Below, piece after piece: positions 25,364 to 40,885 of a stretch of 40,906 bases of DNA; the first letter of the stretch is position 1; each line of letters opens with the position of its first letter. Under the pieces are notes generated by a model. The model saw nothing but the letters and a program-made list of their open reading frames with translations. It was not told where the DNA came from and did no database searches. Both the position numbers and the translations under genes were made by a program. Source of the DNA: Aquificales bacterium (GTDB taxonomy: Bacteria; Aquificota; Aquificia; Aquificales; Aquificaceae); the NCBI GenBank assembly GCA_027078675.1, contig JALWWX010000212.1, positions 1-40,906 on the forward strand, given 5' to 3'.

Positions 25364-26974
25364 TTAAGCCTTCTTGTAGTTGTAGGGGTGCCATTCCTCA
25401 TCCACTTCGGGTAGCTTGTCAAAGTTATGGGGTGCAGGTGGTGAAGCAGTCCACCACTCCAGAGAAGGTGAACCCCAAGGATTAGCATCAGCCTTTTCAC
25501 CTTTCACCATACCCAGGATGAGGTTTATGAAGGTTATAAGTACTCCAAGAGCGAATATAAACGCACCAACTGTCATCCAGTGATGGGCAGTTATAAGCTC
25601 GGGAATGGGGGGATAATCAACATATCTTCTGGGCATACCATGAAGACCAGCTATAAGTTGCATTCCAAATATAAGCATAGCACCCATAAACATTACGAAG
25701 AAGCCCAGGCTTCCAAGTCCATCTGAGTAGGCAAGTCTTCCTGTGAATTTGGGGAACCAGTAGTAAAGACCTGCAAATATACCAAAGGTTATTATCATTG
25801 CAAGAACAAAGTGGAAGTGACCTGCAATCCAGTAGGAGTCAGAAAGACCGTAATCTATACCAAGCATACCGTTAGGTATTCCTGTCAAACCTCCTGGAAG
25901 AATCATAAATATGGTTCCAAGGGCAAACCATGTTGCTGTATTGAACTTCAAAGCACCCTTAAAGAGGGTTAAGGTTGATGCAAGAACTATAATTCCGACG
26001 GGTACAGTTATCATCATTGTGGTTATGGACTGGATTATCTTCAACCAATCAGCGGTAGCGGTAACGAACATATGGTGTGTCCATACTATGAATCCCAATA
26101 CAACAACTCCCCACTGAGCTATTACATACGCTTTATATCCGAAGAACCTGTTTTTAGCCATTGCGGATATGACTTCACCGGCAATAGCAACCGGTGGTAG
26201 CAACATTACATAAACTGCTGGGTGTGAGTAGAACCAGAATACGTGCTGATAAAGAAGCGGATCACCACCCCTTGCGGGATCAAAGAAGGCTGTACCAAGA
26301 TACTTGTCAAAAAGGTCCATTGTAACTGCGCCCGCAAGTGAAGGAACACCAAGGATCTGTATGACGTTGGCGGTTATTATTGAATGAACAAATATAGGCA
26401 ACTTCCAATATGACAAGCCCTTGGCCCTCATTCTAATAACGGTTGTGAGGAAGTTAACAGCACCTGCTATGGAAGATACTCCAAGAAGATGAATTATGAA
26501 AACATAAAGGGCAAGATTTCCTGCATCGTTGTTGAGGGCATAGGGAGGATATCCCGTCCACATCATCTTTATGTGGTTACCGGGTATTAGGGTTATAAGA
26601 ACAAGAACACTTGCACCGAAGTATGCCCACCAGCTAAGGGCATTTAATCTGGGGAAGGCAACATCCCTTGCACCTATCATCAAGGGGAGCAAGAAGTTAC
26701 CGAATCCTCCAGTGGGTGCACCTATAGCCCACCATAGGAGCATTATTGCACCGTGTCCAGTAAGGAGATAGTTGTAAAACTCCGGACTCCAGAATTGCAG
26801 ACCCGGATTTGTCAACTCAAGCCTCATTCCAAGGGCAAAGAGTCCACCCACCACAAAAAACAGGATGCTGGTAACGAGATATAAAATGCCGATCTTTTTA
26901 TGATCCGTCGTAAATATCCACTCTTTCAGGGAGGCTCCGAAATATGGCACCCCTGTAGGGATAGCTTCCCTCAT
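25364..26974 (-). CDS. coxA: Cytochrome c oxidase subunit I, A2-type
   Basis: 536 residues, 12 membrane helices. Low-spin heme ligand in TGHGAIMLLWWAIGAP; helix 6 reads WFYSHPAVYV, with the CuB His and cross-linked Tyr; helix 7 has WTHHMFVTA; helix 10 has AGHFHFVLA with both heme ligands. The YSHPxVY form, in place of GHPEVY, places it in the A2 subclass of heme-copper oxidases, in which the D-channel Glu is replaced by the Tyr-Ser pair. It reduces O2 to water and pumps protons. A GGAGGTG ribosome site precedes the ATG. Last gene of the cox unit; terminator follows. Confidence 0.97.
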   Translation of the reverse strand: MREAIPTGVPYFGASLKEWIFTTDHKKIGILYLVTSILFFVVGGLFALGMRLELTNPGLQFWSPEFYNYLLTGHGAIMLLWWAIGAPTGGFGNFLLPLMIGARDVAFPRLNALSWWAYFGASVLVLITLIPGNHIKMMWTGYPPYALNNDAGNLALYVFIIHLLGVSSIAGAVNFLTTVIRMRAKGLSYWKLPIFVHSIITANVIQILGVPSLAGAVTMDLFDKYLGTAFFDPARGGDPLLYQHVFWFYSHPAVYVMLLPPVAIAGEVISAMAKNRFFGYKAYVIAQWGVVVLGFIVWTHHMFVTATADWLKIIQSITTMMITVPVGIIVLASTLTLFKGALKFNTATWFALGTIFMILPGGLTGIPNGMLGIDYGLSDSYWIAGHFHFVLAMIITFGIFAGLYYWFPKFTGRLAYSDGLGSLGFFVMFMGAMLIFGMQLIAGLHGMPRRYVDYPPIPELITAHHWMTVGAFIFALGVLITFINLILGMVKGEKADANPWGSPSLEWWTASPPAPHNFDKLPEVDEEWHPYNYKKA

Positions 26975-26988
26975 GATACTACACCTCC

Positions 26989-27846
26989 TTAATTATTTAC
27001 CTTAGCTAATTCTATATTACCACCCTTAGCTTGCTTTGTATACCACTTCTTAGTTGAATACTTGTTTATAAGATCAGCATCAGCAATTTGACCGTTATAC
27101 CACTGTTCAAATTCTTCCTTGGGAACTACCCATATCTTGGCCAGCATATAGGCATGGTTGGTACCACAATATTCCCTACATGATACGAGATACTCTCCAG
27201 GTGCATCCACTTTAAACCATTGGTAGGTTACTCTTCCGGGATAAAGATCCTGTAGCTTGTTAATAGGTGGCCATAGGTAGAAAGCATGTATAACATCAGT
27301 TGACTTCATAGAAAGCTTTATCGGAACACCAGCAGGTACTATAAAGCCACCCTTAAACTCTTCAAACTTATCAGTTGCAGGGTTATAGAAGGAGAAAAGG
27401 GTTTTACCGTTAGGATATTTAAACTGCCACATCCACATTGAACCAGTAACTTCTATCTCCATAGCATTTTCAGGTATTTTCTTTTGATATTCAAACACAG
27501 ATTCAGAAACGAAATCCAGGAATATGTCTCCCGCAAACACTGCAACTCCCCAAGCTATGAGAAGACCGTTTTCTATAGGTCCCCACGGTTTAGAAGCATG
27601 CTCACCTTCTTCCCTTTCACCCTTCTTATACTGGTAAATCAGTGTGAATACAACAAAAGGTATAGCTATTACAAAGAAGTATAGCATTACCACATAAAAG
27701 ACATTCTTGAATCCCCAATACCATTGAAGACCCGGTTCCGCACCAGTAGCTTTTGCGACTTCATAACCCTCAAGTATGGGTTGATGCCCTACTATCATGA
27801 CCAGCGTAGTAACCGCAAAATAAACTATTACCAATATGGCTACCAT
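26989..27846 (-). CDS. coxB: Cytochrome c oxidase subunit II
   Basis: 285 residues. Three hydrophobic stretches are visible: an N-terminal one (~1-20) and two helices (~48-70 and ~90-112). A cupredoxin domain then carries the binuclear CuA site: His in STDVIHAFYLW, then CREYCGTNHAYM with two Cys, Glu, His and Met. The aromatic electron-entry patch is MWMWQFKYP. No C-terminal heme c domain, so an external cytochrome c must donate; the nearby c552-like protein is the obvious candidate. GGAGGTG ribosome site at correct spacing. Sits between sco and coxA. Confidence 0.95.
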   Translation of the reverse strand: MVAILVIVYFAVTTLVMIVGHQPILEGYEVAKATGAEPGLQWYWGFKNVFYVVMLYFFVIAIPFVVFTLIYQYKKGEREEGEHASKPWGPIENGLLIAWGVAVFAGDIFLDFVSESVFEYQKKIPENAMEIEVTGSMWMWQFKYPNGKTLFSFYNPATDKFEEFKGGFIVPAGVPIKLSMKSTDVIHAFYLWPPINKLQDLYPGRVTYQWFKVDAPGEYLVSCREYCGTNHAYMLAKIWVVPKEEFEQWYNGQIADADLINKYSTKKWYTKQAKGGNIELAKVNN

Positions 27847-27849
27847 TGT

Positions 27850-28644
27850 TCACACCTCCTTCCTTCCATAAAGTTTACCATAAAAAACGCTAAGCAATAA
27901 AGTTGAACCCAAAAGTATGAAGCCAACACCTCCCAATATCATAACAGGATTTAACATATAAGATCCCTTCTTGGCGTTGTAGCTGAAACATGCGAGATAT
28001 ACAAGATCTACAACCTCATTTATTTTAAGTTCTCCTGTATTTGCCTCCGCAAGGGCAATTCTCACCGCCTTAGGATCGGGCTTAACCCCATATATATACC
28101 TCACTATCCTTTTGTCGGGAGATATGAATATTAGCACATTGGGATGTACAAAAGCCCTGTCCTTAACAGAATAGAAAAATCTAAATCCAGTGGCTTCGGT
28201 GATGCGTCTTATATCCTGTTTTGAAAGCAATCCGAACACCCAATTATCAGGTATATATTTCAGTTTCTCCTTAAAGGATTTCATTGTTTCCAAAGTATCC
28301 TTTTCGTCAAAGGAAAGGGTTATAAAAGTGAAGTCCCTATCTTTGATAGACTCCAAGGCTTTGGATATATTGCCAGCCAGAACAGGGCAAGAGGCATCGC
28401 ATGTGTAGTATGCAAATACTATAATGGCGGGTTCCTCACCAATTATCTCCCAGAGCTTTTTAGTTTGCCCATTTTCAAGAACAACATCAACATTGGGAAT
28501 TTCCCTTCCCAAATGTTCACCCTCATTTATACGAAGGATAGAAACATCAAAACTGCTATCTTCATCATAGGGAACACCAAGAGGGGTGTTAACCGACCAA
28601 CCAAGGGATAAAACAGTAAGCAGAAGAAGAAACACCCCTCTCAT
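27850..28644 (-). CDS. sco: SCO1/SenC copper chaperone for CuA assembly
   Basis: 264 residues from the ATG at 28644; an in-frame TTG two codons earlier is less likely. Signal peptide (~1-19), then a thioredoxin fold with the copper motif CDASC and the distal His in FVHPNVLIF. A single C-terminal membrane helix (~235-258, VMILGGVGFILLGSTLLLSV) is unusual among Sco proteins, which are mostly N-terminally anchored, but is seen in some thermophiles. Delivers copper to the CuA site of CoxB, encoded next. A GGG-rich ribosome site is near the ATG. Confidence 0.92.
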   Translation of the reverse strand: MRGVFLLLLTVLSLGWSVNTPLGVPYDEDSSFDVSILRINEGEHLGREIPNVDVVLENGQTKKLWEIIGEEPAIIVFAYYTCDASCPVLAGNISKALESIKDRDFTFITLSFDEKDTLETMKSFKEKLKYIPDNWVFGLLSKQDIRRITEATGFRFFYSVKDRAFVHPNVLIFISPDKRIVRYIYGVKPDPKAVRIALAEANTGELKINEVVDLVYLACFSYNAKKGSYMLNPVMILGGVGFILLGSTLLLSVFYGKLYGRKEV

Positions 28645-28662
28645 GGCCAAACCCTTAAATTA

Positions 28663-29454
28663 TTAATGTCCTCCTGACAACGCAGGTATAGATCCTACAA
28701 AGTATGCATTTGTAGCAACGAACATCCATACAACGTCAACGAAATGCCAGTAAAATCCAGTTGCTACAACTGCAGTTGTTTTGGTTTCGTCAATCTTACC
28801 GCTCAAACCTATCCAGAGAAGATAAAGCATAGCAATCAATCCTACAAGAACGTGTGATGTGTGAAAACCTGTAAGCATATAAAATGCGGTACCGTACATA
28901 TTAGATGATAGGGTAAAACCGGACTCCCAAAGATGTATCCATTCCATAACGTGCAAGATTACGAACAATGCACCCAATATTATTGTGATGAGAAGCCATT
29001 TGTTATAGGCGCCCACATTTCCATGTTCTATAGCCCTTTCCGCTAAGACTATAGCTCCACTTGATGCCCAAAGTATCAGGGTCAGTATAACTGGCATCAG
29101 CAGATTCATCTCTTGAGGCACCCAATTTGCCCATTCATGAGAGTTAAATACCCATGCCCTCCAAAATGCTGCAAACATTGTTCCGAATACTATTACCTCG
29201 GAAGCAACGAAGAAAACTATGGCTATCTTTCCATGCTTCTCATCATGCCCCGTTGTGAAGAATTCATTTACCCAACCTGCAAGTCCTCCGAGTAAGCAAA
29301 CAACAGTTAAACCTGCAAAGATAACCGCTAAAAAGGGCATCTGCCATTGAAAAAAGGCGGTAAAAGCTAAAACAGCAAACAATGCACCAAGCCCTACTCC
29401 AACGGGCCACACACTAACTTCATGGTGACCGTGGTGGACTTCTTCATGCGCCAT
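28663..29454 (-). CDS. coxC: Cytochrome c oxidase subunit III
   Basis: 263 residues, seven predicted membrane helices. Recognisable motifs are FFVASEVIVFGTMFAAFWRAW, LTGFHTSHVLVGL with the conserved His, and the C-terminal FYWHFVDVVWMFVA. Subunit III stabilises subunit I and its proton uptake. First gene of the cox unit, preceded by a promoter at 29497-29502 and an AAGGAGGG ribosome site. The N-terminus is His-rich (HEEVHHGHHEV). Confidence 0.95.
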   Translation of the reverse strand: MAHEEVHHGHHEVSVWPVGVGLGALFAVLAFTAFFQWQMPFLAVIFAGLTVVCLLGGLAGWVNEFFTTGHDEKHGKIAIVFFVASEVIVFGTMFAAFWRAWVFNSHEWANWVPQEMNLLMPVILTLILWASSGAIVLAERAIEHGNVGAYNKWLLITIILGALFVILHVMEWIHLWESGFTLSSNMYGTAFYMLTGFHTSHVLVGLIAMLYLLWIGLSGKIDETKTTAVVATGFYWHFVDVVWMFVATNAYFVGSIPALSGGH

Positions 29455-30443: not shown

Positions 30444-31463
30444 TTAACTGCTTGTCGCAACAGCACCCCTCCTGTTTTTTATTGTAAAGTATATCACAAA
30501 CCAGACGAGGATAAGCTCTATAACCGCCACAAATATGTTTACATGCGCTACGGAACCAACTATTACTATCCTCTCAAGGAAAAGCCCAAAGAGAACTATA
30601 CCCGCCACGATAACCATTAAATAGGGTGAGAGTTTAACCTTTCTGAAAAGAAGGCTAAGCCATGGAATAGCTAAAAGTAAAACGGGTATAAGATAGGTAG
30701 CTACTGGGAAGTGCTCAAGTCTTTTTAGGAAGTAATGGAACTCTTCATAAAGGTTTCCGTACCATATTATAAGTACCTGTGAATATAAGAAGTACCCCCA
30801 GAGGAAGCTAAATCCGAACATAATGGTAGAAGAGTCCCACTGGGTCTTCTTAAATATTTCTGGGAATTTTCCTCCGTTCTTTATGTATATGATAAACCTG
30901 ATAACAGCTATCAGTGCAAGGGCGGAATATACAGCCTCAAGGGTTATATAGGCATCAAAGAGAGAGCTGTACCAAGGGTAGTCAAGGGGCATAAACCAGT
31001 CGTAACCTATATTTGCTTGAAATGCAACAAAGGCAAATAGATATACAACAGCCCAGAAGTACTTCTTATCACTTTCTTTAAGAGATTCGGTAGCATATTT
31101 CCACGCAGCAAGGCATATAGCTTCATAAAGGAACAGATTTCTTAAAACATAAAATCCTTTGTTGAGCCATAGACCCTGATGTTTTGCCCAAGGATATATA
31201 TCAAGCTGGAACATAAATATAAGGAACAAAGTGGCGGAGAATATCACTGCAGGATAAAGGGAAAGGAGATATTCCTTAACAGGCTTTATCCACCCACCCC
31301 TAACCGTTTCCGCAATGGCAACTATAGCTATAGCACCCTGAGTTATAGCGGAAAGGTAAGATAGACTTACTAAGAGCGTACCGTCAACACCCTTTATTAT
31401 CTCAATTATAAGAAATATAAACCATACTACACCGAACCCTATCCAAAGAGACTTGCTTCCCAT
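30444..31463 (-). CDS. actF: Alternative complex III subunit ActF (quinone-site membrane subunit)
   Basis: 339 residues, about ten membrane helices, no cofactor motif. It is a NrfD-like paralogue shorter than ActC, with the ActF-type pattern YPWYSSLFDAYITLEAVYSAL and SFLWGYFLYSQVLIIWYGNLYEE. In solved ACIII structures ActC and ActF form the two membrane halves. Start overlaps the actD stop as TAATG. Confidence 0.9.
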   Translation of the reverse strand: MGSKSLWIGFGVVWFIFLIIEIIKGVDGTLLVSLSYLSAITQGAIAIVAIAETVRGGWIKPVKEYLLSLYPAVIFSATLFLIFMFQLDIYPWAKHQGLWLNKGFYVLRNLFLYEAICLAAWKYATESLKESDKKYFWAVVYLFAFVAFQANIGYDWFMPLDYPWYSSLFDAYITLEAVYSALALIAVIRFIIYIKNGGKFPEIFKKTQWDSSTIMFGFSFLWGYFLYSQVLIIWYGNLYEEFHYFLKRLEHFPVATYLIPVLLLAIPWLSLLFRKVKLSPYLMVIVAGIVLFGLFLERIVIVGSVAHVNIFVAVIELILVWFVIYFTIKNRRGAVATSS

Positions 31464-31954
31464 TACGCTTCCTCCTTAGCCTTCAAAAGTGACTCTATCT
31501 CCTCAACACTTTCACCTTTCACCTGTATGACAAACTTATTTCCGTAATCCTCAGGAGATATAATCCTCTTAATGCTTGGAAGACCAGATAGAATTAGCAA
31601 ACCTATAAAGGTAGCTATTCCTCCAAACAGTATGGTCAGCTCATAGGCTATAACAAAAAAGGGTAGAACACCTACAAGAGGCTTACCTCCCACTATAAGG
31701 GGTGGGTCCTCCCAACTTAAATGTGTATACGTGGTCAAGGCATACCCTGTTATGAAACCTGTAAGGGCTCCAACGAGGGTAAAGTACTTAATCTTACTCT
31801 TATGGGGATGTGTACCGAGTATTTCATCCACCTCATGAACGGGAACAGGCGTTATAACCCTTATATCTTTGGGACTAATACCTGCATCCACAAGCTCCTT
31901 AAGTTTTGCCAGAAAATCTTCCTTTTCATCAAAAACAAACTCTACCTTTTTCAT
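31463..31954 (-). CDS. actD: Alternative complex III subunit ActD (DUF3341)
   Basis: 163 residues. N-terminal cytoplasmic domain (~1-60, with VDAGISPKDIRVITPVPVHEVDEILG) followed by two membrane helices (~63-80 and ~95-125) and a short C-terminal ferredoxin-like segment. This is the DUF3341 arrangement of ActD. Overlaps actC by 4 bp (ATGA). Confidence 0.9.
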   Translation of the reverse strand: MKKVEFVFDEKEDFLAKLKELVDAGISPKDIRVITPVPVHEVDEILGTHPHKSKIKYFTLVGALTGFITGYALTTYTHLSWEDPPLIVGGKPLVGVLPFFVIAYELTILFGGIATFIGLLILSGLPSIKRIISPEDYGNKFVIQVKGESVEEIESLLKAKEEA

Positions 31955-33270
31955 TTTCCTTCCTCCCTGACTCTCTCTTCCTTAACTTCAAATATGGAAA
32001 CGACAGGTATAGCCCTTGTAAAGAGAAGGAACCACATAAAGAACCATGCAAAGCTACCTATGGTTATAAGTATTTCAACAATGCTCGGATGATAAAGTCC
32101 CCAAGAGTAAGGTTCATATTCATGAGCCAGAGAGATGACAACGATAACAAATCTTTCAAGCCACATACCTATGTTGATAAATATGGAAACTACGAAGAGA
32201 ACAAGTAGATTTCTTCTCATACTCTTTATAAAGAGTATAAGTGGGACAACGGAGTTGCAGAATATCATAGCCCATGAGTACCACTTGTAATCTCCAAAAG
32301 CCCTGTAAATGAATTGATCCCTTTCAAATACATTTTCACCATAAAGAGGTAATGTAAACTCTGTTATGTAAGCGTAAGTAACTATAAGACCTGTGAAAAG
32401 GGTAAGTTTGGCCAGATTTTCAAAGTGATCTATGGTTATATACTCTTCCAATTTAAATATCTTTCTCATGGGTATAACAAGGGTAAATACCATTGCACAT
32501 CCGGAGAATATAGCACCTGCTACAAAGAAAGGAGGGAATATGGTTGCATGCCAACCAGGAACTATGGACACTGCAAAGTCAAAGGATACTACCGAGTGGA
32601 CTGATGCAACAAGGGGGGTAGCAAAGGCTGCAAGGAACAGGGATGCCCTTACATAATGCATCCACTGTGGAACGGTACCTGTCCATCCCAAGGAGAACAG
32701 CCTGTAGAAAAATCCTCTTACTCCTCCAAAGAATCTCCTTGCTATGGCAAGATCTGGTACCATACCGAGGTACCAGAATATTAGACTTATGGTAAAGTAA
32801 GTTGACACCGCAAAAACGTCCCATTCAAGAGGAGAAAAGAAGTTAGGCCATATCTCCCTCTGGGTGGGATAAGGGAAGAGCCAATATATCTTCCAAGGTC
32901 TTCCTGCGTGAATAATGGGGAATAACCCCGCTGTCATAACAGCGAATATTGTCATAGCTTCAGCGGATCTGTTGAATGCACTCCTGAAGTTTGCTCTAAA
33001 CAGCAATAAGACAGCGGATATTAGGGTTCCTGAGTGTGCTATACCTACCCAGAAGACAAAGTTGATAATGTAGAATCCCCACATACCAGGGTGCCTTATA
33101 CCCGCAGCTCCGAGACCAGTTTTCAGCTGATAGATCCACGCACCTATGGCGACAAGGACAAAGAATACACAGAGTCCAAGAGCTATCCAATAGGCCTTAC
33201 CGGGTTTTACCATGGGCATAAGGATATCTCTGTCTATCTTGTCAAGCCTTTCAGAAAGTTTGGTTGCCAT
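31951..33270 (-). CDS. actC: Alternative complex III subunit ActC (NrfD/PsrC-like)
   Basis: 439 residues with ten predicted membrane helices, NrfD family. Landmarks: FWVGIAHSGTLISAVLLLFRANFRSAFNRSAEAMT near helix 2, then WPNFFSPLEWDVFAVSTYF and FNSVVPL-like later segments. ActC holds a quinol site and is proposed to move protons. AGGAGGG ribosome site upstream. Separated from actB by one base. Confidence 0.94.
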   Translation of the reverse strand: MATKLSERLDKIDRDILMPMVKPGKAYWIALGLCVFFVLVAIGAWIYQLKTGLGAAGIRHPGMWGFYIINFVFWVGIAHSGTLISAVLLLFRANFRSAFNRSAEAMTIFAVMTAGLFPIIHAGRPWKIYWLFPYPTQREIWPNFFSPLEWDVFAVSTYFTISLIFWYLGMVPDLAIARRFFGGVRGFFYRLFSLGWTGTVPQWMHYVRASLFLAAFATPLVASVHSVVSFDFAVSIVPGWHATIFPPFFVAGAIFSGCAMVFTLVIPMRKIFKLEEYITIDHFENLAKLTLFTGLIVTYAYITEFTLPLYGENVFERDQFIYRAFGDYKWYSWAMIFCNSVVPLILFIKSMRRNLLVLFVVSIFINIGMWLERFVIVVISLAHEYEPYSWGLYHPSIVEILITIGSFAWFFMWFLLFTRAIPVVSIFEVKEERVREEGK

Positions 33271-33271
33271 A

Positions 33272-36200
33272 TTAAACCCTCCTTCTCACCTTTGGAAGGT
33301 AGTAAACCTTGGGTTCTGTCCCAAGGAGATCAAAGATTCTGTATGAATCCTTATCCTTAGACATCTTGTAAACCTGCGAGTTTTCATCCAGGAAGTTGCC
33401 GAAAACTATGGCACCGCTCGGACATGTCTGGGCACATGCGGGCAGAAGCTCACCCTCCTTAATCATCCTATGCTCATCCTTAGCGAGATCCCTTGCCTTC
33501 CTTATTCTGTGGAAGCAGAAGGTACATTTTTCCATAACCCCCTTACCCCTTACCGCAAGATCGGGATTAAGCATCCTATCAAGGGGTGACTCCCATTTGT
33601 AATCAAACCAGTTAAATCTCCTTACCTTGTAAGGACAGTTGTTTGAACAGTATCTTGTACCCACACACCTGTTCCACACCTGTACATTCAACCCTTCGTC
33701 ATTGTGATAGGTTGCCTTTGCAGGACAGACAGGTTCACAGGTAGCATTTTCACACTGCTGACACATCATTAATACAAAGTTGACTTCACCATTTTCCTCA
33801 TAGTAAGGCTCTATCCTTATCCAGGACATCTCCCTCCCCTTTAGATGTTCAGACGGGCCTGCTATGGGAACATTATTCTCTATATAACACGCAGCTATAC
33901 AGGCGGAACATCCCACACATTTATCAAGATCAACCGCCATAGCCCAAAGATAGGTCTTATGAACATGACTGTGATCGGGATAGGGCAGTTGGGCAAAAGG
34001 ATGCTTTGCATAGGGGTATTTAAACTTACCGGGAGGTGCCTCGTGACCCCATGCGTGCATATCCTCCTCTCCCATGTGTTCCTTTTTAGCCTCCTTATAA
34101 GGAATAGGGACAACTCCCCTATCGTGATCCGAATATGAACCAGAAAGTATCGGGATGTTCCTAACCTTACCCGTTTTCTTTATGCTAACAATCTCTATAA
34201 AAGGTATTAACTCCCCAGTCCTGCCGTCCACATTGAATTTTTCCGGTGTAATTGTACCCATGTATGCAACTATAATCCCATCCGCCAAGCCTTTCTGGAT
34301 ATGAGCGAGTGTGGTTTTATTAACTCCTTTACCGGATACAACAACCTCTTCCCTTAACAGTTTCTTATTAGGTATATTCCTTATCCTAAATCTCTTAGCT
34401 ATACCTTCAGAAACCAACATATAATCGCCATACGATATTGCGGTTATAGGATCAGGAATCTCATTTAAAAGCAGATTATTTTTACCTCTACCGTCATACC
34501 ATCTTATGGAAGGTGCAAGAACAAGTGCAGGTTTCTTAATCTCATTTTCATACCTTATGTTCCTGATCAAAGACCTTACTATATTAGTTCTCAAATTTAG
34601 ATTGACCTTGGGCAGTTCTTTTATGTGATATGGTAGTTTCTCAGGCGGTATATTGAAAGCGGGCCATTCATAGGGACCAGCATTAAAGAGCCTGTCCGCA
34701 ACCTCCTTGCCGTAATCCCTTTCTATCCTTTTATAGACATACTCTTTAAAGTCCTTAGCAATGCTCTTGCCTTTGTATCTCCTTAGTATTGTAATAAGGA
34801 TATCTCCCTCCGGAAGTGTGTTAAACAAAGGCCTGTTATTAGAAGGATCGCTTTCGGGAGGAATGAGAATCTCAAGGGCGGGCTTGTAAACGGAAAGCAT
34901 ACCTTTTCTGGGTTCAGAATCACCCCAGCTCTCTATAGGATGGGAAAGGGGAAGTATTAGATCACATTCCTGAGCGGTTTCATTAGGCAAATCATATAAG
35001 CCAACAACAAAGTGGGCATTCTTCAAAAGATTTTTAAATTTTTTACCCTCAAAGGAAGCGGGATCAACCTTTGATAGGAAAGCCACCCCTATCTTCCTTA
35101 TACTTAGTTCAGACATAAAGTTTCTGAGATCTATGAAATTTCCAACTCTTTCATAGTTTTCTGAATATGTAAAGTCTATAAGATCATCCGTCATGCCCAT
35201 AGCCCACTGTATAAGCCCTCCCAAGACAGCAACATCAAGACCAGTATCATGAGCGGTTGATACACCACCTACTATAAGCAGAGGTTTCCTCGCTCTTGAC
35301 ATTTTCGCGAGAAGCCTATCAATGTTCTCCGCCTTTATACCAGTTCTTTCCGCAACCTCCCACAAGGAGTAACGTGGTACATATTGAATTATCTCCTCAG
35401 GAACTTCCCTTACAGCCACACCGCTTTCTACTATCCATCTCAGTATAAAGGAGAGGAGAAAATGCTCCGTACCTGGTTCTACGGAAAATCTTTCATCCGC
35501 GTTAAGGCCTGTAAGTGTAAGATGGGGTTCTATATGTATCCATTTAAAGTTTTTATTATCACGTGCCTTCGCAAAGGCTGATTGGTAATATACGGGATTA
35601 CCGAAGGATTCAAGTATATCAGCACCTACGGTTAATAGAAAATCAGATTTCTCAACCTTATAAACTGGCAGTTCATTTATCCCGAATAGTACCTCATATC
35701 CCTTCCTGACAGCGGAGTGGTTTATGGGTTCAAATTCTGGCAATCTCTCAATACCTGCCTCTCTACAAAACTCATCTATAAGATGGGAAAGTGAACCCGT
35801 AGTCCTTGAAGAAAGGTAAACACTCTTAAGGCCTTTCTTCTCCGCTTCCTTTAATCTATCAACAACAAGATCTATGGCCTCTCTCCATGTTATCTCCCTC
35901 CAGTTGCCATTCGTATCTTTAATGAGAGGATTCTTATACCTTTCGGGGCTATAAATCCTGTATAAAGATGCCTGCCCTCTTATGCAAAGAACACCAGCGT
36001 TAAAAGGTTCTTTAAAAGCACCTGATGTTATGGGATGATTAGGCATACCCTCAAGTTTGGTGGGATATTTACCATGTACCCTGTCATAAACCTTATCCCT
36101 TACAAAGGCAAGGGCGGGACACCCAGAAGGACATTCAGCACATACCGTAGGGAAGTATAAACCCTCTCCTCCACCCCCCGCATCGGGAGGTATCCTATCG

Positions 36201-36334
36201 GGGGGAGGTGAAACAAAAGGAATTATTTCATCAGTTCTAAAGTAATGATTTTTATTGAGATGTCCTGTACAAGAGGATAGGGCTGCACTTCCTGATATAA
36301 ACCCTATGAATTTTATAAAGTCCCTTCTTTTCAT
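33272..36334 (-). CDS. actB: Alternative complex III subunit ActB (molybdopterin-like plus iron-sulfur)
   Basis: 1020 residues. TAT signal MKRRDFIKFIG with a following LSSC22 that may be lipidated. Residues ~55-720 form a molybdopterin-oxidoreductase-like domain, which in ACIII binds no molybdenum cofactor. It still has C65-x2-C68-x3-C72 and C117, the pattern of an N-terminal [4Fe-4S] site. The C-terminal part (~780-1010) is a PsrB-like ferredoxin: CVGCSACIAAC, CQQCENATCEPVC, a Cys cluster in RCVGTRYCSNNC and EKCTFCFHR...CAQTC. These carry electrons from quinol to ActA hemes. AGGAGGG ribosome site precedes the ATG. Confidence 0.95.
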   Translation of the reverse strand: MKRRDFIKFIGFISGSAALSSCTGHLNKNHYFRTDEIIPFVSPPPDRIPPDAGGGGEGLYFPTVCAECPSGCPALAFVRDKVYDRVHGKYPTKLEGMPNHPITSGAFKEPFNAGVLCIRGQASLYRIYSPERYKNPLIKDTNGNWREITWREAIDLVVDRLKEAEKKGLKSVYLSSRTTGSLSHLIDEFCREAGIERLPEFEPINHSAVRKGYEVLFGINELPVYKVEKSDFLLTVGADILESFGNPVYYQSAFAKARDNKNFKWIHIEPHLTLTGLNADERFSVEPGTEHFLLSFILRWIVESGVAVREVPEEIIQYVPRYSLWEVAERTGIKAENIDRLLAKMSRARKPLLIVGGVSTAHDTGLDVAVLGGLIQWAMGMTDDLIDFTYSENYERVGNFIDLRNFMSELSIRKIGVAFLSKVDPASFEGKKFKNLLKNAHFVVGLYDLPNETAQECDLILPLSHPIESWGDSEPRKGMLSVYKPALEILIPPESDPSNNRPLFNTLPEGDILITILRRYKGKSIAKDFKEYVYKRIERDYGKEVADRLFNAGPYEWPAFNIPPEKLPYHIKELPKVNLNLRTNIVRSLIRNIRYENEIKKPALVLAPSIRWYDGRGKNNLLLNEIPDPITAISYGDYMLVSEGIAKRFRIRNIPNKKLLREEVVVSGKGVNKTTLAHIQKGLADGIIVAYMGTITPEKFNVDGRTGELIPFIEIVSIKKTGKVRNIPILSGSYSDHDRGVVPIPYKEAKKEHMGEEDMHAWGHEAPPGKFKYPYAKHPFAQLPYPDHSHVHKTYLWAMAVDLDKCVGCSACIAACYIENNVPIAGPSEHLKGREMSWIRIEPYYEENGEVNFVLMMCQQCENATCEPVCPAKATYHNDEGLNVQVWNRCVGTRYCSNNCPYKVRRFNWFDYKWESPLDRMLNPDLAVRGKGVMEKCTFCFHRIRKARDLAKDEHRMIKEGELLPACAQTCPSGAIVFGNFLDENSQVYKMSKDKDSYRIFDLLGTEPKVYYLPKVRRRV

Positions 36335-36346
36335 ATTAAAGCCCTC

Positions 36347-36943
36347 CTATTTATGACAAGTCCAACAGTCGGTTGGAGCCCTGTCCACCTTTGCTGGAGG
36401 CAATCCATGAGCCTTAAGGTAACCGTTAACATCCTTATGACATTCAAGGCACCATCCCATCTTTAAAGGTTTTACTCTCTGGGCTACCGTCATGGTACTG
36501 AGATCACCGTGACATGCTTTACAATCAACACCCGCCTTTACATGCCTTTTGTGAGTGAAAAAGACAAAATCCGGGAGTTTATTAACATGCTTCCAAGGAA
36601 CTGGTTCCTTCTTGTTCCAATACTCAGTCAACTTTTTAATTTCAGGTTTGTCCGTTGCTATAACCGAATGGCAACCCATACAAACTTCCAAGGGAGGAAT
36701 ACCTGGACTTACCGCCTTATCCGCATATGCATGACAGTATGTACACTGCAGTCCTACATCCTTTACATGCTTGTAATGGGGAAACTCTATAGGCTGTTCG
36801 GGAGTCTCAATCCTGTAAACAACAAAGGCATCACCCAAAGGTTCTATCTTAACACCGAGAGATTTAAACAAATAGATTAAGGCTCCACCCACCACAAAAA
36901 CAACTACACCGAGTACAGCAAGAACACCAAGGCCCTTCCTCAT
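36347..36943 (-). CDS. actA: Alternative complex III subunit ActA (pentaheme cytochrome c)
   Basis: 198 residues. One N-terminal membrane helix (~5-28) and five CxxCH motifs in a periplasmic domain: CTYCH, CMGCH, CKACH, CLECH and CWTCH. Additional His residues (HYKH, HVKAG, KHV) can serve as distal ligands. This is the pentaheme ActA of ACIII, receiving electrons from ActB. AGGAGG ribosome site at 36948-36953. First gene of the operon and directly downstream of a sigma-54 promoter. Confidence 0.95.
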   Translation of the reverse strand: MRKGLGVLAVLGVVVFVVGGALIYLFKSLGVKIEPLGDAFVVYRIETPEQPIEFPHYKHVKDVGLQCTYCHAYADKAVSPGIPPLEVCMGCHSVIATDKPEIKKLTEYWNKKEPVPWKHVNKLPDFVFFTHKRHVKAGVDCKACHGDLSTMTVAQRVKPLKMGWCLECHKDVNGYLKAHGLPPAKVDRAPTDCWTCHK

Positions 36944-36964
36944 AATAGCCTCCTATATTCTATT

Positions 36965-36980
36965 AGCAAGGGGTGTGCCA
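36965..36980 (-). promoter_or_regulatory. Sigma-54 promoter of the act operon
   Basis: Minus strand TGGCAC-ACCCC-TTGCT matches the sigma-54 consensus TGGCAC-N5-TTGCW exactly, with GG and GC at the required -24/-12 spacing. Expected start is about 12 bp on, near 36955, leaving a ~12-base leader that just includes the AGGAGG of actA. A gene for a sigma-54-dependent activator is divergently encoded 145 bp away behind its kinase. rpoN itself is outside the window. Confidence 0.82.
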
Positions 36981-36989
36981 AAATGTCCT

Positions 36990-37006
36990 TGGAAATTTAT
37001 ACTCCA
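36990..37006. promoter_or_regulatory. 17-bp dyad, candidate activator site 1
   Basis: TTGGA-N9-TCCAA inverted repeat core TGGA(N9)TCCA. Same architecture as the dyad at 37077-37093. Its centre is ~43 bp upstream of the predicted sigma-54 start, closer than usual for an enhancer site. Confidence 0.4.
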
Positions 37007-37076
37007 AAAATTAAAAACTTAAATAAACGATACGATTTTTTAAATGAAAGTAAGGTGGTAAATTTTTTGTTGTGAC

Positions 37077-37093
37077 TGGTAAAAACTTGACCA
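37077..37093. promoter_or_regulatory. 17-bp dyad, candidate activator site 2
   Basis: TGGT-N9-ACCA, centred ~130 bp upstream of the predicted act start, the normal range for NtrC-type enhancers. Its right half overlaps TTGACC at 37087-37092, the best -35 for the kinase gene. An extra TGGT half-site at 37056-37059 lies 21 bp (two helical turns) to the left. Confidence 0.45.
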
Positions 37094-37119
37094 TCCGTCC
37101 AAAGTACGCAAAATAATAT
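37087..37119 (+). promoter_or_regulatory. Possible promoter of the sensor kinase gene
   Basis: TTGACC at 37087-37092 and an AT-rich TAATAT at 37114-37119, spacer 21 bp (or AATAAT at a 19-bp spacer), both longer than ideal. TAATAT ends 5 bp before the GTG start, which has no Shine-Dalgarno, consistent with a leaderless message. Confidence 0.3.
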
Positions 37120-37124
37120 GTACT

Positions 37125-38823
37125 GTGAACTGGCTTAAAAATATTCTCCATTTAAGCATAGGCATAAAGTTAGCTGTAACCTTTTTCACCGTTATTCTTC
37201 TTTCATCTTTACCCCTTACGGTTGTTATGGTAAACTTTGGGGAAAATATATTATTTGAAACAACTGAAGAAGCAATAAAGAACTTCCTTGAGATTGAAGA
37301 AAGCATAATTTCTGAATTTCTTATAAAAAAGGACGAAGAGAAACTTAAAGATATAAGCAAAACAATAATAGCTCAGAGGTTTATAAATGAAGTAGCCTTT
37401 CTTGATGAAAAAGGGTACGCTCTGACGTACACAAGTAAGGACGAGATACCCTTCGGTCTAACACGTCTTTTGGAAGATCAAAGATATACGGTTAAACACA
37501 AAGTAACCGACAAAGAAGGCAACCCAGTAGGATTTGTTGTTATAAGGCTTGATAAGAAAGAAATAACAAGGCAGTTTTCTTATATAAAATACAGCGTTTT
37601 GGGTATATCTTCGGGTTTCGGATTGATGGGTATTTTGCTAAGTCTCATAATATCCTATAGGATAAATTCAAGATTGAGGAGGATCCTAAAGGAAGCGGAG
37701 AAGGTAAGAAAGGGACATATAGAGGAAGTAAATAAAATAGACTTCCCTGAAAAGGATGAGATTCAAGACCTTGCAGATGTGGTTTATGAAGCCTTCAAAA
37801 ATGTTAATACATTCCTTAATAACATAAGATTTGCCCAAGACTTTTATGCGGAGATAGTAAACAATGTGTATGACATAGTACTCATCCTTGACAGAGAAAT
37901 GAGGATATTCTTTACAAATCACAGGATTGAAACCCTCGGATTTAACTATCACCAACTTCTCGGCAGGAAATTTTCCGTTTTAATAAAGGATCCAAGGGAC
38001 AGAACCATACTGAGGAATACGCTGAACAACAAGCTTCCCTTTACCTATGAAACGGAGATAAGAAAAAGGAAAGGGGGAAGTATTCCGTCCTTGCTAAGTA
38101 TAATGCCCGCCAAAGAGTGGTACATTGTAACCATAGCGGATATTTCAAAGATAAAAGAGCTTGAAAATAAAATGAAAAGGATTGAAGCCCTTTCTTTTCT
38201 GGGAGAGATGTCCGCCAATCTCGCCCATGAGTTAAAAAACGCCCTTTTACCGGTTAAACTCCTTACCTCTATGGATGAATGCGATAAAAAGGATATAGAG
38301 ATAATTAAAAAATCCATATCGCGAATTGACAGTATAGTTAATGAGTTTTTGACCTTCGCAAAAATAGGAGGAGGAAACTGGAGCTTACTTAATATAAGCG
38401 AGGTAATAAAGGAGAACATATCCCTGCTTCTCCCGAGGATCAAAGAAAAAAATATAGAACTTAAAACTTTTTTTGAAGATATACACATATATTCAAACAG
38501 AGAAGCTTTAAATGTAATACTTACAAACCTTTTAAACAATGCAATTGAAGCCATTGACGGCAAAGGCTTCATACATGTATCCGCTGTAAGAAAAAATATG
38601 GAAGTGCATATAACCATATCCGATTCGGGTAAGGGGATACCAAAAGAAAATATGGACAAAATATTCTCACCCTTCTTTACAACTAAAAAGGGAGGGACAG
38701 GTCTTGGCTTACCCATAGTGATGAGATACACCCATCTTTTGGGAGGTACACTTGATATACAATCCCAGGTCGGGAAGGGAACGACAATTACAGTTACAAT
38801 ACCTTATATAAATAATAAAAGCC

Positions 38824-38852
<29 letters not shown>
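37125..38852 (+). CDS. NtrB-like membrane sensor histidine kinase
   Basis: 575 residues, GTG start at 37125 (no in-frame ATG fits). Membrane helix 1 (~13-35), an extracytoplasmic sensor loop of ~120 residues (~36-155), membrane helix 2 (~156-180), HAMP linker (~180-230) and a PAS domain (~245-345; VYDIVLILDREMRIFFTN). HisKA phosphoacceptor His368 is in NLAHELKNALLPVK, and the ATPase domain has NLLNNAIEAI, DSGKGIP and GGTGLGLPI. The signal is unknown; the loop and PAS have no Cys cluster or heme motif. The response-regulator gene overlaps its 3' end by 29 bp, so they act as a pair. Confidence 0.92.

Positions 38853-40885
<2,033 letters not shown>

Follow-up and report, generated by a model that had tools for sequence, protein, structure and literature searches.

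An AioR-type sigma-54 activator very probably controls the alternative complex III operon of an Aquificaceae bacterium through a tandem enhancer

Comparative analysis indicated that the act operon of an Aquificaceae bacterium, which encodes alternative complex III, is very probably driven by an AioR-type sigma-54 activator from a tandem enhancer. Neither AioA nor AioX was detected in the bacteria concerned. The analysis centered on a 40,906-nucleotide stretch of DNA, hereafter the window, from a 1.85 Mb genome estimated to be 99.98% complete. Sequence comparison establishes the enhancer sites with their spacing and conservation, the agreement of their motif with aioBA promoters, and the regulator's kinship. 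A preliminary description of this DNA had proposed that the neighboring NtrC-type regulator activates a sigma-54 act promoter from a dyad at enhancer distance, and the comparative evidence supports this proposal well. Our findings suggest that, in this thermophilic bacterium from a vent, a core respiratory complex is under the control of a regulator whose usual link is to arsenite oxidation.

The predicted control region is a 181-bp gap (36944-37124) between actA on the minus strand and a histidine kinase gene on the plus strand. ActA (36347-36943, minus strand), encoded by the first gene of the controlled operon, is a multihaem cytochrome c of alternative complex III, as indicated by Pfam cytochrome c7/c3 matches and the adjoining ActD. 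It is followed on the same strand by actB (33272-36334), with molybdopterin-like and 4Fe-4S domains in Pfam and QrcB/QrcC-like matches below cut-off, actC (31951-33270; NrfD family, PF03916), actD (31463-31954; PF11821) and a gene for a probable actF-like membrane protein (30444-31463), assigned from its operon position only and without a Pfam match. The cytochrome c oxidase genes COX3, SCO, COX2 and COX1 (25364-29454, minus strand; Pfam) come after act. The order actA-B-C-D followed by cytochrome oxidase genes resembles that of other alternative complex III operons. On the plus strand, the kinase gene (37125-38852) begins with GTG and encodes an AioS-like histidine kinase with two transmembrane segments and PAS, HisKA and HATPase domains (Pfam). 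The regulator gene (38824-40206, plus strand) follows it and encodes a 460-residue NtrC-type protein with a receiver domain (PF00072), a sigma-54 AAA+ activation domain (PF00158) and a Fis-type helix-turn-helix domain (PF02954). This act/kinase/regulator arrangement is retained in all three comparison species (G002, G012 and G020), which are sisters in the window's genus deposited as uncultured Aquificales genomes.

The act operon is preceded by a -24/-12 promoter, TGGCACACCCCTTGCT (36965-36980, minus strand), which matches the sigma-54 consensus TGGCAC-N5-TTGCW perfectly. It precedes the actA start codon by 21 bp, and its GG and GC elements are preserved in the sisters. Seven perfect consensus matches, this one included, are found in the window genome. 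Upstream of other perfect matches (L057, L060 and L061) are TGTAAA/TTTACA-type sequences, which may be the sites of a different activator.

Two 17-bp sites on the minus strand are located farther upstream. The promoter-distal site, TGGTCAAGTTTTTACCA (37077-37093), is where the AioR-type regulator is predicted to bind. The promoter-proximal site, CAACAAAAAATTTACCA (37056-37072), is degenerate and offset from it by 21 bp, as in aioBA promoters. The distal and proximal sites are 106 and 85 bp, respectively, from the -24 GG. The gap thus carries the tandem enhancer typical of Aquificaceae aio promoters, in which two TGNTCA-N5-TGANCA-type 17-bp sites offset by 21-22 bp lie upstream of a sigma-54 box. 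By itself the proximal site is weak, ranking about 45th in the window, and it is weaker still in G020. The preliminary description had noted an extra TGGT 21 bp to the left of the distal site. It is present and starts at 37056, but it is no lone half-site; it opens the in-register proximal site.

Alignment of the gap across the four species showed 122 of 181 columns to be invariant. All 17 columns of the distal site and 13 of 17 in the proximal site are invariant, as is a 23-bp block (37101-37123, plus strand) directly before the kinase start codon. When columns were shuffled, 2% of the shuffles produced an invariant run of at least 19. Since the four species are close relatives, this conservation taken alone is evidence of moderate strength.

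Motif analysis with promoters from other genera also singled out the pair. A first position weight matrix (PWM) was trained on eight aio/CISM promoters of other genera, with training sites picked after the window site had been seen. Among 40,890 window positions it placed the distal site at the top, and the pair also led, with 22.5 bits compared to 6.3 for the runner-up. In shuffled gaps, the single-site score was reached in 1 of 3000 and the pair score in none of 3000. Because the training sites had been chosen with the window in view, we repeated motif discovery blind, by a palindromic EM search of the 160-bp upstream regions of the same eight promoters, with window and G007 sequence excluded. 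The resulting motif, TGnTCAAAnTTTGAnCA, again put the distal site ahead of all others among the 40,890, and the pair scored highest as well (20.9 bits, against 1.4 for the next). The eight regions were chosen by the analyst, and in G052 just one of the two listed sites was recovered.

A combined pattern, consisting of a strong site followed after 70-100 bp by a sigma-54 box, has five matches in 61 family genomes, three at act promoters and two at aioBA promoters. Its reversed control has none in the same genomes. Within the window genome, no other locus among the 136 kb examined, which included most sigma-54-like sites, attained these PWM scores, so that no further regulon member emerged there. 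A search with the right-half tandem pattern gave three matches in the genome; of those checked, only the act-kinase gap is intergenic and beside a sigma-54 box. Copies of the distal site with 3 mismatches occur at seven places genome-wide, no excess over the reversed control.

The same architecture is found at the arsenite oxidase promoters of relatives. In the aioBA promoters of G005, G008, G047, G055, G017, G036 and G018, the sigma-54 box is preceded by two 17-bp palindromes, TGNTCAAANTTTGANCA, offset by 21 bp (22 in G018). The distal and proximal centres are 108 and 87 bp from the -24 GG in G005, G008, G047 and G055; spacings of about 83 and 62 bp also occur. Like the act promoter, these promoters have tandem 17-bp sites upstream of a sigma-54 box. 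Unlike it, they drive arsenite oxidase, and the proximal act site is usually weaker than either of theirs.

The regulator belongs by descent with the AioR-type regulators of Aquificaceae. Related regulators in other genera of the family share 49-58% identity with it and are encoded in aioX-aioS-aioR loci, mostly near arsenite oxidase (aioBA) genes; the AioA and AioB proteins of G005 exceed curated arsenite-oxidase cut-offs. A maximum-likelihood tree built by a quick method placed the regulators of the window's genus, G007 and the aio loci in one clade of 17 rows (SH-aLRT 100), separate from other Aquificaceae regulators and from outside regulators. The recognition helix SRNTL is conserved in this clade. 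Proteobacterial regulators from the contig scan were rejected as AioR references, with no AioA, AioB, AioX or Act genes nearby.

The adjoining kinase is 33-37% identical to kinases in the aioS position (tblastn). Compared with the aio-locus kinases, its identity is 40-46% over the catalytic part and only 10-25% over the predicted periplasmic part. The periplasmic part is also the variable part among the aio-locus kinases themselves, so its low identity alone does not show a changed signal. Searches of the four genus members (G000, G002, G012 and G020) and of G007 found no match to AioA at E <= 1e-20 and none to AioX at E <= 1e-5. Since these two defining parts, the aioBA target and AioX, were sought and not found, the act-linked system is not an arsenite-oxidation system.

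Additional genera extend the comparison. G007, of genus g7, carries an AioR-like regulator gene and an act operon, the two being on different contigs. In its act promoter the sigma-54 box, TGGCACGGAGCTTGC, is perfect, and a 31-bit pair with an offset of 22 lies upstream of actA. The pair is closer to the promoter than in the window: its sites start 45 and 67 bp before the box. No kinase for the regulator was found on the stretch examined around it; the regulator gene there (L041, 9412-11735) is preceded by a gene for a 334-residue predicted lipoprotein instead of a kinase gene. In G052 (L198, 1494-6914) and G060 (L043), a regulator of the AioR clade is located immediately upstream of a TtrBCA-like molybdoenzyme operon. 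As at the act locus, an AioR-clade regulator is accompanied by a sigma-54-like box with palindromic sites of a related kind ahead of it, forming a further predicted target switch. Unlike act, the operon encodes a molybdoenzyme whose scores stay under the tetrathionate reductase cut-offs, and the second site in G052 is weak and was missed by the blind motif. Regulator and site appear to have been kept together while the controlled redox operon differs between genera.

We infer that a signal, phosphorylation, regulator binding and act activation are connected in the following way. The AioS-like kinase would phosphorylate the AioR-type regulator. Regulator dimers would bind the strong distal site and then, cooperatively, the weak proximal one at a distance of two helical turns. 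The AAA+ hexamer would assemble on this enhancer and loop to sigma-54 polymerase about 85-106 bp away. Looping from distally bound dimers to sigma-54 polymerase is the general mode of action of bacterial enhancer-binding proteins. Opening of the act promoter would turn on the genes for alternative complex III and perhaps also those for the cytochrome oxidase farther downstream.

Less certainly, the distal site may double as an operator through which the bound regulator represses its own kinase-regulator operon, because the site covers a candidate -35 element of the kinase gene. This negative autoregulation is plausible, and we lean only slightly against it. A weak candidate sigma-70-type promoter (37087-37117, plus strand) comprises TTGACC (37087-37092) and AATAAT (37112-37117) with a spacing of 19. 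The preliminary description was correct, as a matter of sequence, in placing TTGACC within the distal site. The right half-site, TTGACCA, holds this element, and the bound regulator should occlude polymerase. However, the kinase promoter is only predicted, and although its hexamers are the best pair in the gap and fall in two invariant blocks, they are tied with another candidate. In the aio relatives, moreover, the pair does not overlap a kinase promoter. The candidate promoter would put the start of transcription near the GTG, which fits the 23-bp invariant block and the lack of a Shine-Dalgarno sequence in it. It is possible that the kinase transcript is leaderless.

The enhancer could instead serve another sigma-54 activator of the cell, which we consider unlikely. 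The window genome encodes five related sigma-54 regulators, and assigning an enhancer by proximity is indirect. However, the pair tracks the AioR-type clade, being found at promoters beside aioR or in genomes carrying aioR, and the enhancer motif is absent from the genome's other perfect sigma-54 promoters. The pair is also absent from G057, of a third genus, which has act and in which no AioR-clade regulator was among the matches, an absence that is not certain in a genome 89% complete. Neither a high-scoring enhancer site nor a sigma-54 box is found upstream of actA in G057, and a sigma-70-like TTGACA/TATAAT is visible there by eye. Short repeats, GTTGAAATGCCCTAAA...GGAGGGATTG, are also found upstream of actA in this genome (L056/L199) and look like a CRISPR array adjoining act.

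It is slightly less probable still that the invariant sequence at 37077-37123 is just the sigma-70-type core promoter of the kinase operon, with the palindrome incidental to its -35. TTGACC and AATAAT do lie in the invariant blocks directly before the kinase start. This explanation does not account for a motif derived from promoters of other genera that have no overlapping kinase promoter, or for the pair at the act promoter of g7, where there is no divergent kinase. It also leaves the second site at exactly 21 bp unexplained.

The preliminary description had paired the distal site, TGGTAAAAACTTGACCA as read on the forward strand, with another dyad, TGGAAATTTATACTCCA (36990-37006). The letters, the coordinates and the 87 bp between centres were confirmed, and the pairing was not: the other dyad fails the tests of conservation and motif score, and the real partner is the site at 37056-37072. 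Two equivalent dyads, TGGA-N9-TCCA and TGGT-N9-ACCA, bound 87 bp apart by one regulator are very improbable: two TGGW-N9-WCCA copies in the gap are unusual, but the first dyad is broken in the sisters and scores far below the background leaders, none of the examined aioBA promoters has a site at its position, and the conserved partner is 21 bp away. In dinucleotide shuffles of the gap, two copies arose in 0 of 3000 and at least one in 32 of 3000. Comparison of the gap across the four species upheld the distal dyad and not the other, in which only 8 of 17 columns are invariant and the half-sites are broken in each of the three sisters. It scores -1.3 bits (rank 491) with the first PWM and -7.5 bits (rank 1390) with the blind motif. 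We therefore rejected it as a regulator site and judge it a chance match outside the system. The bare TGGW-N9-WCCA pattern was likewise rejected as a genome-wide motif, having 60 sites in 1.85 Mb, five of them inside the window, compared to 112 for the reversed control. Background frequency, which had been named as evidence against the proposed sites, holds for this loose pattern and not for the refined motif combined with a sigma-54 box.

The preferred explanation, an AioR-type activator acting on act from the tandem sites, can be compared to known systems. In Proteobacteria, AioXSR is established as the sigma-54-dependent control system of aioBA (PMC2848651, PMC7533571). Like AioXSR of Herminiimonas, Agrobacterium and Rhizobium NT-26, the window system has an NtrC-type regulator in tandem with a kinase, a perfect -24/-12 promoter and a palindromic upstream site. 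Unlike AioXSR, it is predicted to control act instead of aioBA, and no AioA or AioX was detected in the genus. The binding site also differs. In Proteobacteria the site of AioR is GTT-N10-AAC, for which the footprinted sequence is GTTCGGATTTCCGAAC (PMC5335332); this motif has no match in the gap at 36944-37124. In a literature search largely outside subscription journals, we found no report joining AioR with alternative complex III and nothing directly relevant on act regulation. In the literature searched, it is unusual for a core respiratory complex to be controlled through sigma-54.

With somewhat more doubt than belief, we suggest that an AioR/AioS module freed from arsenite sensing has become a dedicated switch of alternative complex III and its associated oxidase. 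The enhancer grammar would have been kept while the redox operon, whether aioBA, TtrBCA-like or act, was exchanged; the tree even permits act control to be older than aioBA control. The locus would then be a case of an enhancer and its regulator staying joined while the regulated operon changed, and it raises the question of the kinase's signal without AioX. A specific regulator, predicted binding site and promoter can now be named for testing, and the site motif for Aquificaceae AioR-type regulators makes target prediction possible. The second-ranking single match to the enhancer motif in the window, TGCTCAGATTTTTGGAA (39557-39573), is located inside the regulator gene; it has no tandem partner and is probably due to chance.
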